Shown here: in pieces, positions 23,207-25,677 of the stretch
Layout of the letters: each line of letters starts with the position of its first letter
How positions within the stretch are numbered: the stretch's first letter is position 1
Source of the DNA: Paracoccaceae bacterium
Lineage (GTDB): Bacteria > Pseudomonadota > Alphaproteobacteria > Rhodobacterales > Rhodobacteraceae
Assembly (NCBI GenBank): GCA_019911965.1
Contig: JAIOJF010000025.1
Coordinates: 1-41,719, forward strand
Direction of reading: 5' to 3'
DNA length: 41,719 bases
The notes under the pieces: generated by a model
What the model saw: the letters and a program-made list of their open reading frames with translations, nothing else
Database searches by the model: none
Told to the model about the DNA's origin: nothing
Program-made: the position numbers and the translations under genes

Positions 23207-24019
23207 GTGGAAGGTCAGACCCCGGGCCGTCTGAACAGGGACGGCATCCAGATACATGATGCAGACGAATTCGACGGCATGCGCAAGTCCGGCGCGCTGG
23301 CCGCCCGCACGCTGGACATGATCGCGCCGCATGTCGTACCGGGGGTGACGACGGGTGAGCTGGATCAGTTGATCCATGATTTCATGCTTGAACACGGCGC
23401 GGTGCCTGCCACGCTTGGCTACAAGGGCTATCCGAAATCCTCGTGCATTTCGCTGAACCACGTGGTCTGCCACGGTATTCCCGGCGACAAGAAGCTGAAG
23501 GACGGCGATATCCTGAATATCGACGTGACCTGCATTCTGGACGGCTGGTTCGGCGATACCAGCCGGATGTTCGTGGCCGGACGGCTGAACCGCAAGGCCG
23601 AGCGGCTGATCCAGGTGACCCATGATGCGCTGATGCTGGGTATTGATCAGGTGAAGCCCGGCAATACGTTCGGCGATATCGGCGCGGCGATCCAGGCCTA
23701 TGTCGAGGCGCAGCGGATGTCGGTGGTGCGCGATTTCTGCGGTCACGGGCTGGGGCGGGTGTTCCACTCGGCACCGAACGTGCTGCATTACGGGCGCTGG
23801 GGCACCGGGCCTGTGCTGGAAGAGGGCATGTTCTTCACCATCGAGCCGATGGTCAATCTGGGACGTCCCGATACCAAGGTTCTGGGCGATGACTGGACGG
23901 CTGTGACCAAGGATAAATCGCTGTCGGCGCAGTTCGAGCATTCAATCGGGGTGACGGCGGACGGGGCCGAGATTTTCACCCTGTCACCAGCGGGCAGGTT
24001 TCACCCGACCTGGGAATAA
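23207..24019 (+). CDS. map: Methionine aminopeptidase, type I
   Basis: This enzyme removes the initiator methionine from nascent proteins using two divalent metals. The 270-residue product has the metal ligands Asp106 (NIDVTCI), Asp117 (FGDTSRMF), His180 (CGHGLGRVFH), Glu213 (FTIEPM) and Glu244 (FEHSIGV), and the conserved His89. GTG 23207 is the start that agrees with homologue length and lies after a CGGAG. The 15 to 20 residue N-terminal extension before the catalytic core is usual here. It is the last gene before a 431-nt gap with a structured RNA candidate. Confidence 0.96.
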   Translation: MEGQTPGRLNRDGIQIHDADEFDGMRKSGALAARTLDMIAPHVVPGVTTGELDQLIHDFMLEHGAVPATLGYKGYPKSSCISLNHVVCHGIPGDKKLKDGDILNIDVTCILDGWFGDTSRMFVAGRLNRKAERLIQVTHDALMLGIDQVKPGNTFGDIGAAIQAYVEAQRMSVVRDFCGHGLGRVFHSAPNVLHYGRWGTGPVLEEGMFFTIEPMVNLGRPDTKVLGDDWTAVTKDKSLSAQFEHSIGVTADGAEIFTLSPAGRFHPTWE

Positions 24020-24450
24020 TAGGGTCAGGCATCCGGCCTGCGTGGCATCGGGCGCCACTCCAAGATCGTGCCGGAACTTTTGCCGAGTCGGGGCGTGAAT
24101 CTGTAAATTGCGGAGTCGATGAATAACCGGCAGGTTGTTGATTGCCTTCGATTAAAGACGTGAAAGCGGGTTTTCCGGAACCCCGGAATCCCCGTATTGT
24201 CGGCAACGCTGAATCGCGAAAGCCCCGCCATCCGGGGCGAGGCTACGGCCAATTGTAGTCCCCGGTATCGCGGATCTGGGTGGGGGCTGATTAACCGCGA
24301 CACCGGGGTGAGCCTTCGCTCGCTACAGGAAACGGTATGCCGGTGGTTCGCGGCACAAAGGTGGGCGGTTTCGGGCAGCGGCATGGCAAGGCGCGGATTC
24401 GGGGAAACGCTGCGTCGGGGATGTGGAAACAATCACGGCCCCGCCAGTGA
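24020..24450. other. 431-nt intergenic gap between convergent map and ubiH
   Basis: No convincing protein gene is seen. A small CAGGC/GCCTG hairpin (24026-24040) follows the map stop and could end map transcription. Open frames exist on both strands but have no start signal, no recognisable domain and are crossed by the stems described in the next entry. The tail of a minus-strand frame near 24027-24110 looks protein-like and may be a gene remnant, which is not certain. The right half (24215-24355) is dominated by nested inverted repeats. Confidence 0.6.
24215..24355 (-). ncRNA. Candidate structured small RNA (three-way junction) downstream of ubiH
   Basis: Read on the minus strand, TGTAG (24327-24323) pairs with CTACA (24258-24254) and encloses two helices with one-nucleotide linkers. 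These are GAGC-GAAG-GCTC (24321-24310) and a 14-bp stem (24308-24295 with 24273-24260). The long stem has one G-U pair that would be an A-C mismatch on the other strand, favouring a minus-strand RNA. Its 21-nt loop contains CAGCCCCCACCCAG, a C-rich single strand of the kind that can pair with ribosome-binding sites. A TGCCG/CGGCA hairpin (24355-24338) precedes it. GCCCCG-GATGG-CGGGGC-TTTCG (24238-24217) follows like a terminator. No clear promoter was found, so it may derive from the ubiH 3' UTR. Confidence 0.45.
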
Positions 24451-25677
24451 TCAGATCGCCCTGCCCTGCATCAGCACCGGCAGATCGCCGGTCAGCCCGG
24501 CAGCCTGCCGCATCAGGCCGCGCCGCAGCCCCGGCAGCGCATTGACCAGCCCAAGGCCGATATCGCGGCCCGCTCTCAGCAGCGGATTGTCGTTGGAAAA
24601 CAGCCGGTTGATACCCTCGGTCGCACCGGCCATCGCCAATGTGTCGAACCGCCGCCATTGCTGGTAACGCTCCAGCACCAGCGGTGACGCGACATCCTCG
24701 CCGCGCCGACGCGCCAGCACCAGCACCTCGGCCAAGGCCGCGACATCGCGCAGGCCCATATTCAGGCCCTGACCGGCCAGCGGGTGCATCCCGTGTGCCG
24801 CATCCCCGACCAGCGCCAGCCGTGGCGCAATGAAGCTGTCCGCGATGGTCAGTTTCAGCGGATAGGCAAAGCGCGCGCCTTCCAGCCGGATCCCGCCCAG
24901 GAAATCACCGAAGGCGGGGCGCAGTTCGCCCAGATATTCGGCATCCGACAACCCGGTGATCCGCTCCGCCCGCGCGGTCTCGACCGCCCAGACGATCGAG
25001 CAGCGATTGCCCGGCAGCGGCAGGATGCCCAAGGGGCCGGACGGCATGAAGAACTGATGCGCGATGCCGCCATGCGGCTTGTCATGGGCGATGGCGGATA
25101 CGAGGCCGGTCTGGTCATAGCCCCAGCCGTGGCGTCCGATACCGGCCCGCCGCGCGGTGCCGCTGTCGCGCCCGTCGCAGCCGACCAGAAGGCTGCCGCG
25201 CAGCACGCGGCCATCGGCCAGCGTGATCTCGGCCCCTGCGCCATCGGTGGATTGCGCCACCACTTTGGCCCCGCTCAGATGCGTGATGCGGGGATGCGCG
25301 GCAATCGCGGCCAGCAGGGCGCGGCGCAGGTAGCGATCTTCCAGCATATGGCCCATCGGGCCTTCCTCTAGCTCGCGGTGGTCGAAATGCAGGGTCCAGG
25401 GCGCGGCCCCTTCACCGGCGCGGCCATCGCTGGCGATGATATCGAGGATCGGCTGGCTGTCTGCCGCGACCCGATCCCAGATGCCAAGGGCCGACAGCAT
25501 CCTTGTCGAGGCCAGCGCCAGCGCATAGGCGCGGCCATCGAAATCCGAATCCGTCAGGGTTTCAAGCGGCTGCGCATCGACGATGGTGACGCTGAAGCCG
25601 CCACTTGCCAGGGCCAGGGCCAGCGCCGGGCCGTTCAGTCCGCCACCGGCGATCAGGATGTCGCTGTCGGTTCTCAT
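24451..25677 (-). CDS. UbiH/UbiF/Coq6-family FAD-dependent hydroxylase
   Basis: This flavoprotein monooxygenase family hydroxylates the ring of ubiquinone precursors. The 408-residue protein has the N-terminal dinucleotide-binding motif DILIAGGGLNGPALALALA (6-24) and a central LLVGCDGRDSGTARRAG (DG motif). The C-terminal RLALVGDAAHGMHPLAGQGLNMGLRDVAAL is the flavin ribityl-binding GD motif of UbiH-type enzymes. Which ring position it hydroxylates cannot be told from sequence alone. ATG 25677 follows GGAGG closely; an upstream ATG at 25713 would add 12 residues. The gene is divergent from the amidase, and its 3' flank holds the candidate small RNA. Confidence 0.9.
   Translation of the reverse strand: MRTDSDILIAGGGLNGPALALALASGGFSVTIVDAQPLETLTDSDFDGRAYALALASTRMLSALGIWDRVAADSQPILDIIASDGRAGEGAAPWTLHFDHRELEEGPMGHMLEDRYLRRALLAAIAAHPRITHLSGAKVVAQSTDGAGAEITLADGRVLRGSLLVGCDGRDSGTARRAGIGRHGWGYDQTGLVSAIAHDKPHGGIAHQFFMPSGPLGILPLPGNRCSIVWAVETARAERITGLSDAEYLGELRPAFGDFLGGIRLEGARFAYPLKLTIADSFIAPRLALVGDAAHGMHPLAGQGLNMGLRDVAALAEVLVLARRRGEDVASPLVLERYQQWRRFDTLAMAGATEGINRLFSNDNPLLRAGRDIGLGLVNALPGLRRGLMRQAAGLTGDLPVLMQGRAI

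Follow-up and report, generated by a model that had tools for sequence, protein, structure and literature searches.

In the window, the 41,719-nucleotide stretch of DNA that we analyzed, a gene for a UbiH/UbiF/VisC/COQ6-family hydroxylase (here called ubiH) and a gene for a type I methionyl aminopeptidase (map) are convergent, and the gap between them holds a small structured element on the minus strand (Table 1). A first-pass annotation had drawn this element as a three-way junction, in which a closing stem (P1) encloses a short hairpin (P2) and a long hairpin with a C-rich loop (P3), followed by a GC-rich hairpin. All of the pieces that it described were found in the sequence, at the place and on the strand given for them. 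The minus strand of positions 24190-24360 had a folding z score of -2.73, with 2 of 200 shuffled sequences being equally stable; for the plus strand of the same positions, the z score was -1.23 and 24 of 200 shuffles were equally stable. In its minimum-free-energy fold, the minus strand formed both P2 and P3. P1 as drawn was absent from this fold, and the TGTA of this stem was paired elsewhere. To describe the element as a family, a covariance model (R1) was built from 34 copies, the window copy among them.

Table 1. Parts of the minus-strand element, its predicted control region, and the flanking genes, in positions of the window
Feature	Position	Strand	Basis or remark
Conserved sRNA core (P1, P2, P3, and loop)	24253..24329	minus	Match to covariance model R1, 100.3 bits, E value 1.4e-20
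P1 closing stem, TGTAG/CTACA	24254..24327 (24327-24323 with 24258-24254)	minus	Sequence
P2 hairpin, GAGC-GAAG-GCTC	24310..24321	minus	Sequence and minimum-free-energy fold
P3 hairpin, including loop	24260..24308 (14 bp, 24308-24295 with 24273-24260)	minus	Covariation
C-rich loop of 21 nt	24274..24294	minus	CAGCCCCCACCCAG core nearly constant among the copies compared
GC-rich hairpin and TTTCG, weak intrinsic terminator	24217..24238	minus	-15.8 kcal/mol, then TTT
-10-like box CATACC, predicted promoter of the sRNA itself	24334..24339	minus	Position kept in 156 elements
Phased GCC-N8-GCC-N19-GCC, predicted ChvI sites	24352..24387	minus	GCC at -61, -50, and -28
Duplicated unit (upstream region, sRNA, and terminator)	24216..24449	minus	92% identity to a copy on contig C26 of the same genome
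UbiH/UbiF/VisC/COQ6-family hydroxylase, upstream neighbor on the same strand	24451..25671	minus	TIGR01988, 411.9 bits, above cutoff
Type I methionyl aminopeptidase (map), convergent neighbor	23207..24019	plus	TIGR00500, 315.2 bits, above cutoff

The covariation that the annotation had proposed to look for was found in P3. Among 94 copies fitted to the covariance model, compensatory changes occurred at 11 of the 13 modeled P3 pairs, 98.5% of the paired cells were standard, and 115 P3 cells were altered on both sides, compared with 26.9 in shuffles; shuffled or slid structures were far worse. Covariation of P3 was also seen in a MAFFT alignment of 34 copies. P1 and P2, on the other hand, showed no compensatory change in 22 distinct copies of the type found in this genus (plus L020). 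In this set, three of the four P2 pairs were invariant, while 90.0% of the P1 cells were paired and three of the five P1 pairs varied on one side only, and covariation at P1 and P2 in the genus-type copies says nothing for or against these stems. The minus strand had been favored at first from a single pair, which is G-U there and would be A-C on the plus strand, and this argument holds for the whole family: when the 94 copies were read on the minus-type strand, their paired positions held 146 G-U cells versus 4 A-C cells, and the 34-copy alignment, which includes P1 and P2, contained 77 versus 12. Because G-U outnumbers A-C throughout the family, the functional strand is fixed as the minus-type strand.

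Two forms of the element were distinguished. Type I, the genus-type form, has P1, as do a few other copies (e.g., L020 and L185). Type II, the widespread form that is linked to the gamma-glutamyltransferase gene (ggt), starts with GTAGCTG; it has no P1, and its P2 can pair in a different register. When both forms were taken together (34 copies, 32 of them distinct), pairing was lower, at 80.6% for P1 and 81.3% for P2, since P1 is missing from the commoner form, in which P2 is paired in another register. The three-way junction is seen in the genus-type copies and the few others with P1, but not in the commoner type II.

The R1 model matched 289 of 394 sampled Rhodobacteraceae genomes, the genome of the window included, in a sample of approximately one genome per genus, and such a distribution excludes a chance origin of the structure. 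Most of these genomes had one or two matches each, among the matches listed, and 105 genomes had none, for which the strict filters are perhaps part of the cause. Of 289 genomes sampled across the class, 4 had matches, all of them Rhodobacteraceae. By blastn against 60 relatives, weak matches appeared in 6 of the 27 Rhodobacteraceae genomes of other genera and in none of the 24 genomes outside the family; one of the matches (L025) misses the loop and is, we think, spurious. A pattern scan of named genomes gave at least 119 stretches, mostly from Rhodobacteraceae genera, judged by title, or from unclassified metagenome genomes; the matched titles include Ruegeria, Roseovarius, Salipiger, Marivita, Pseudooceanicola, and Rhodovulum, which we take to be Rhodobacteraceae genera. 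The element also occurred in records named Enemella, Castellaniella, and [Pseudomonas] hibiscicola (L069, L087, and L135). At least the first of these names looks wrong; the Enemella contig is equal in length to a contig of the Rhodobacteraceae genome G011.

The annotation had called the element an uncatalogued small RNA of the minus strand, and this description was borne out in Rfam 15, where no family matched at or above its gathering cutoff anywhere in the window or at the element in 25 related loci (7 plus 18 named). With a lax threshold, just subthreshold matches were obtained at the element (anti-hemB, suhB, and ST7-AS2_1). A description of the element was not found in the accessible text of papers on the sRNAs of R. 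sphaeroides (PMC3413700, PMC3688512, PMC8307010, PMC11354728, PMC5089854, and PMC10673084), R. pomeroyi (PMC4809877), and P. denitrificans (PMC5107571), nor in the accessible literature on ggt and sRNAs in Rhodobacter or in surveys of RNA motifs; in the open literature, the loop strings occurred in unrelated work only. According to the available part of the P. denitrificans paper, some intergenic sRNAs are conserved in Rhodobacteraceae, e.g., intergenic 134, 60, and 100 (PMC5107571), and one of these, or an entry in a supplementary list, could be the element, which may thus have been detected earlier as a numbered transcript.

Six matches in all, the window copy included, were found at four places in the genome of the window: the copy between map and ubiH, two copies in tandem on contig C57, two on C26, of which one is a divergent form that precedes ggt, and one on C2. 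The unit that the window copy has in common with a C26 copy is 234 nt long and takes in the upstream and terminator regions as well as the sRNA. Among the 60 relatives, all nine genomes of the same genus had two or three matches each, among the matches listed, and the copies were mostly about 240 nt apart; at the five loci with both flanks visible, the order was NlpC, the copies of the element, and ggt. Neither map nor the element lay beside ubiH in these nine genomes within the flank covered after ubiH, which was approximately 0.26 kb in two genomes, 0.9 kb in one, and 1.5 kb in six. The map-ubiH junction of the window (24019-24451), which holds the sRNA copy, was one not seen in the nine relatives within their flanks, and the NlpC-array-ggt locus of the relatives is split across four sites in this genome. 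The copies of the element may have acted as recombination points. In plasmid records, the window copy had no match at all. Tandem copies were also seen in Salipiger and Alloyangia, about 250 nt apart (L136:1054-1360, L139:1243-1549, and L143:1445-1742), with no match to ggt or NlpC within 900 nt.

The annotation had suggested that the RNA is perhaps released from the ubiH 3' untranslated region (UTR). This suggestion was not supported. The window copy has an upstream region of its own, with the -10-like box and the phased GCC triplets, in common with 156 elements; the nine relatives had no element beside ubiH within the flanks covered, and the usual neighbor of the element is ggt or an NlpC/P60 gene. 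The best reading of the odd hairpin beside ubiH is that it is a gene copy and not a by-product of ubiH. Copy number alone, with six copies in one genome and one of them at a junction that the relatives do not show within their flanks, could suggest a dispersed repeat of the MITE or REP type with no regulatory role. However, within the genus the copies are arranged as tandem units, all five loci with both flanks visible represent one conserved locus, most Rhodobacteraceae genomes have only one or two of the matches listed, the stems covary, and the upstream region is conserved, so that a repeat of this kind is largely refuted and hardly credible.

Across the loci compared, ggt was the most constant companion of the element, being located downstream on the same strand, within 900 nt, at 115 of 147 loci. 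This link was seen at 91 of the 119 pattern-chosen named loci, among the matches listed, and at 24 of the 28 loci chosen by the model, two sets that partly share contigs, and the median distance from the start of the element to the start of ggt was 146 nt and 159 nt, respectively. At 12 of the 119 listed named loci, the element instead followed an NlpC/P60 gene; 6 listed named loci ended before the context could be read, and 14 loci (10 named and 4 model chosen) had another context. Gemmobacter megaterium has a TPP riboswitch (RF00059; L086:2284-2391) downstream of the element, at a distance of approximately 165 nt. In G084, which we take to be R. sphaeroides 2.4.1, the genes preceding the element (L248) look like those for an anti-sigma antagonist and an RsbW-like kinase.

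A link to ggt of this strength and at such short distances is what would be seen if the hairpin were a cis-acting leader in the 5' UTR of ggt that controls this gene, with the window copy being a displaced relic. Several observations argue against this explanation. In 59 of 156 cases, compared with 2.5 in shuffles, the element is followed by a promoter-like sequence (TTGR-N18-20-TAnnnT), and this speaks for ggt being transcribed separately. Conservation of the 156 elements fades about 40 nt past the loop, the NlpC/P60 loci have the element in a different setting, and the genus-type copies mostly have a terminator hairpin at their end and stand in tandem, with no ggt directly after them. We thus consider a ggt leader quite unlikely.

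The predicted ends of the RNA differ between the two forms. Of the 23 type I copies, 21 had a hairpin more stable than -8 kcal/mol that was directly followed by at least three T residues, with the end located 106 to 123 nt from GTAG; the window copy is among them, but with TTT only, a short T run. By the same test, the type I copy on C26 had no terminator hairpin, and the copy on C2, near NlpC, had a weak one. Type II copies have just a T- and C-rich tail following P3. The RNA is predicted to be approximately 72 to 75 nt long in the ggt-linked form and approximately 105 to 125 nt long in the form of the window, which has the extra terminator.

The upstream region was compared in 156 nonredundant elements, which share a -10-like box and, upstream of GTAG, four conserved CC peaks 11 nt apart, with information peaks at -59/-58, -48/-47, -37/-36, and -26/-25. 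These peaks correspond to up to four GCC triplets spaced by 11 bp. GCC pairs at distances of 11, 22, and 33 numbered 68, 85, and 65, compared with 4.5, 3.8, and 2.8 in shuffles. GCC-N8-GCC was present upstream of the start in 63 of the 156 elements (shuffled mean, 4.4), and a pair at any of the distances 11, 22, or 33 bp was present in 121 (shuffled mean, 10.5), leaving 35 elements with no such pair. No such set of pairs was found in a control stretch (-130 to -70) or in mraZ leaders, and the region after the element had an excess only at a distance of 11 (18 versus a mean of 7.7; standard deviation, 3.0). Across the whole genome of the window, the three-GCC pattern was hardly commoner than its reversed control (520 versus 456 matches); in this GC-rich genome, the bare pattern is common by chance. 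Besides the GCC repeats, inverted GTTTCC/GGAAAC half-sites (e.g., GGAAACCGACCGTTTCC) were noted upstream of later tandem copies, at approximately 1425-1460 in L012, at approximately 1694-1710 in L011, and upstream of the second copy in L015 and L019.

Direct repeats of GCC with this spacing resemble the binding site of ChvI. In the accessible text of PMC9731502, the ChvI consensus of S. meliloti is given as 15 bp long, with direct repeats of GCC (N-GCC-N8-GCC), and ChvGI is described as an envelope guard; the Caulobacter motif is reported there as different, TTGC-N3-GCAA with a center that is mostly GCC. In the genome of the window, the gene for an OmpR-type regulator is directly followed by those for a ChvG-like kinase and HprK, in that order. 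The best match of the kinase was to NF058527, with 396.8 bits, which is below the cutoff of 740. No family model names the regulator as ChvI, a name that we gave it from the place of its gene, and by eye the stretch upstream of this chvI-like gene had no obvious GCC array. From the spacing, the triplet, and the presence of these genes, we infer that ChvI controls the promoter of the element. CenR of R. sphaeroides, with TGA-N8-TGA (PMC9275681, accessible part), has an equal spacing of 11 bp; as its triplet is another one, it was rejected as a candidate.

The reading that we prefer, with a probability of roughly 60%, is that the element is a duplicate of a free-standing, ChvI-controlled gene for a trans-acting sRNA, which is conserved across the Rhodobacteraceae and works like ChvR of Caulobacter. 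When the envelope is stressed, or in acid or minimal medium, ChvI would be phosphorylated by the ChvG-ChvI two-component system, bind the GCC repeats phased by 11 bp, and turn on transcription at the -10-like box that immediately precedes TGTAG. In the resulting RNA, the C-rich loop would stand open on top of a rigid P3 hairpin. This loop would serve as a constant seed for pairing with G-rich segments in one mRNA or a small number of them, most likely encoding envelope proteins, whose translation would be lowered. The extra copies in the genus would provide a higher dose. In a variant of this reading, which we regard as possible but doubtful, the element would be a core envelope-stress sRNA of almost the entire family that ChvI switches on via a four-repeat GCC array, and its loop would dock on a protein or on one very old universal RNA partner and so be kept from changing, unlike its surroundings.

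The CAGCCCCCACCCAG core of the loop was nearly constant among the compared copies, some rows of which had been chosen with part of the motif, and CCCCCACCCAG was constant in nearly all of the 156 diverse elements, while P3 varied; this invariance is overstated because the 156 rows were picked with CCCCCACC and because both the pattern and the selection of best-model loci favor well-conserved copies. The G084 element retains only CCCCCACCC in its loop, the edges of which are altered. If the loop bound a protein, the RNA being a decoy or a cofactor for a C-rich-RNA-binding protein, a constant loop beside a drifting stem would be accounted for, as would the lack of a conserved RNA partner in our searches. 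However, the way in which the rows were chosen and the changed loop edges of G084 weaken this argument, and an sRNA with many targets would give equal conservation, so that we find a protein-binding role unlikely.

With regard to targets, the annotation had described a C-rich loop of this kind as typical of RNAs that pair with G-rich ribosome sites. Such pairing is at most putative; no conserved partner of the loop was found among the near-matches to its complement in the genome of the window or in mraZ leaders. Near-matches in this genome numbered 50, of which 6 were the copies themselves, compared with 15 for the reversed control; when 24 of the 44 nonself near-matches were inspected, 23 lay within open frames that were 132 codons long or longer. 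In one locus (L205:1501-1514), the loop complement resembles lipobox (LVAGC) codons near the start of a likely lipoprotein gene, which is perhaps a hint at envelope-protein targets or perhaps a matter of codon usage only.

One known sRNA was weighed as the identity of the element itself. StsR (RSs0827) of R. sphaeroides is an RpoHI/RpoHII-dependent sRNA that targets UpsM and rpoE. It is a stress sRNA of 72 nt, also from the Rhodobacteraceae (PMC8307010, accessible text), which is near the size predicted for the element (approximately 72 nt in G084, counted from TGTAG to a point within the T- and C-rich tail, both ends being predicted), and UpsM is described as exclusive to the Rhodobacteraceae in the accessible part of PMC5089854. 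In PMC10673084, as far as its text was accessible, one RpoHI/RpoHII-dependent promoter has TTG at -35 and TAT at -12. Against this identity, the sole match in G084 precedes ggt at 87 kb of the main chromosome, while mraZ/UpsM (formerly RSs0682) is located at approximately 695 kb; RSs0827 is therefore expected far from 87 kb, if the numbers follow the gene order. Additionally, when the loop was compared with shuffled loops in 31 mraZ leaders, it reached or passed the 5% mark in a single leader, and the pairing of the G084 element with its own mraZ leader was no better than that of shuffled sequences. With support from neither chromosomal place nor mraZ-leader pairing, StsR was set apart as very unlikely, on these grounds rather than by sequence comparison.

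The element is probably a new sRNA family of the envelope-stress type, and it may be a widespread and so far unstudied stress-response RNA. The computations show that the element is an RNA, which strand it is on, how it is distributed, and that its upstream region is periodic, while its regulation, transcript ends, and targets are predictions. If this is true, the ChvG-ChvI envelope safeguard of the Rhodobacteraceae, which include marine roseobacters and R. sphaeroides, would have a conserved RNA arm comparable to ChvR. An RNA with matches in nearly three-quarters of a sample drawn at about one genome per genus has stayed outside the Rfam cutoffs in the sequences tested, and its defined upstream region, structure, and putative seed make direct tests possible in tractable strains.

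Several known RNAs resemble the element in part. The C-rich alphaproteobacterial sRNAs with anti-Shine-Dalgarno character, CcsR1-4, have a C-rich loop, occur in multiple tandem copies, and carry the motif CCUCCUCCC. The element shares the C-rich loop and the tandem copies with them; however, CCUCCUCCC was present in 0 of 34 copies of the element, and its gene context differs from that of the CcsR and cuckoo RNAs. Anti-hemB RNA (RF02837) was the best subthreshold Rfam match at the element, in two copies of L008, but with 22.9 and 20.1 bits versus a gathering score of 49.5, and most of the match is carried by the terminator. Similarly, suhB/mmgR (RF00519) matched the 3' part of one L012 copy below the threshold, with 21.7 bits versus a gathering score of 41 and an E value of 3.2. 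StsR is near the predicted size and comes from the same bacterial family, but it probably has another chromosomal place, and pairing of the element with UpsM was unsupported. The closest parallel in kind is ChvR of Caulobacter crescentus, an 84-nt sRNA that is controlled by ChvI-ChvG and represses the TonB-dependent receptor ChvT (PMC6237742, accessible text). Both are small stand-alone sRNAs of similar size, and the element has the GCC-N8-GCC array upstream. However, chvR is called specific to C. crescentus in a figure legend of that paper, while the element is present in hundreds of genera; the neighbor of ChvR is recF, the element has a single C-rich loop, and the two are likened by description and not by sequence. 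By analogy with ChvR, we propose that the element may be a ChvI-controlled, trans-acting regulator that uses its loop as the seed.
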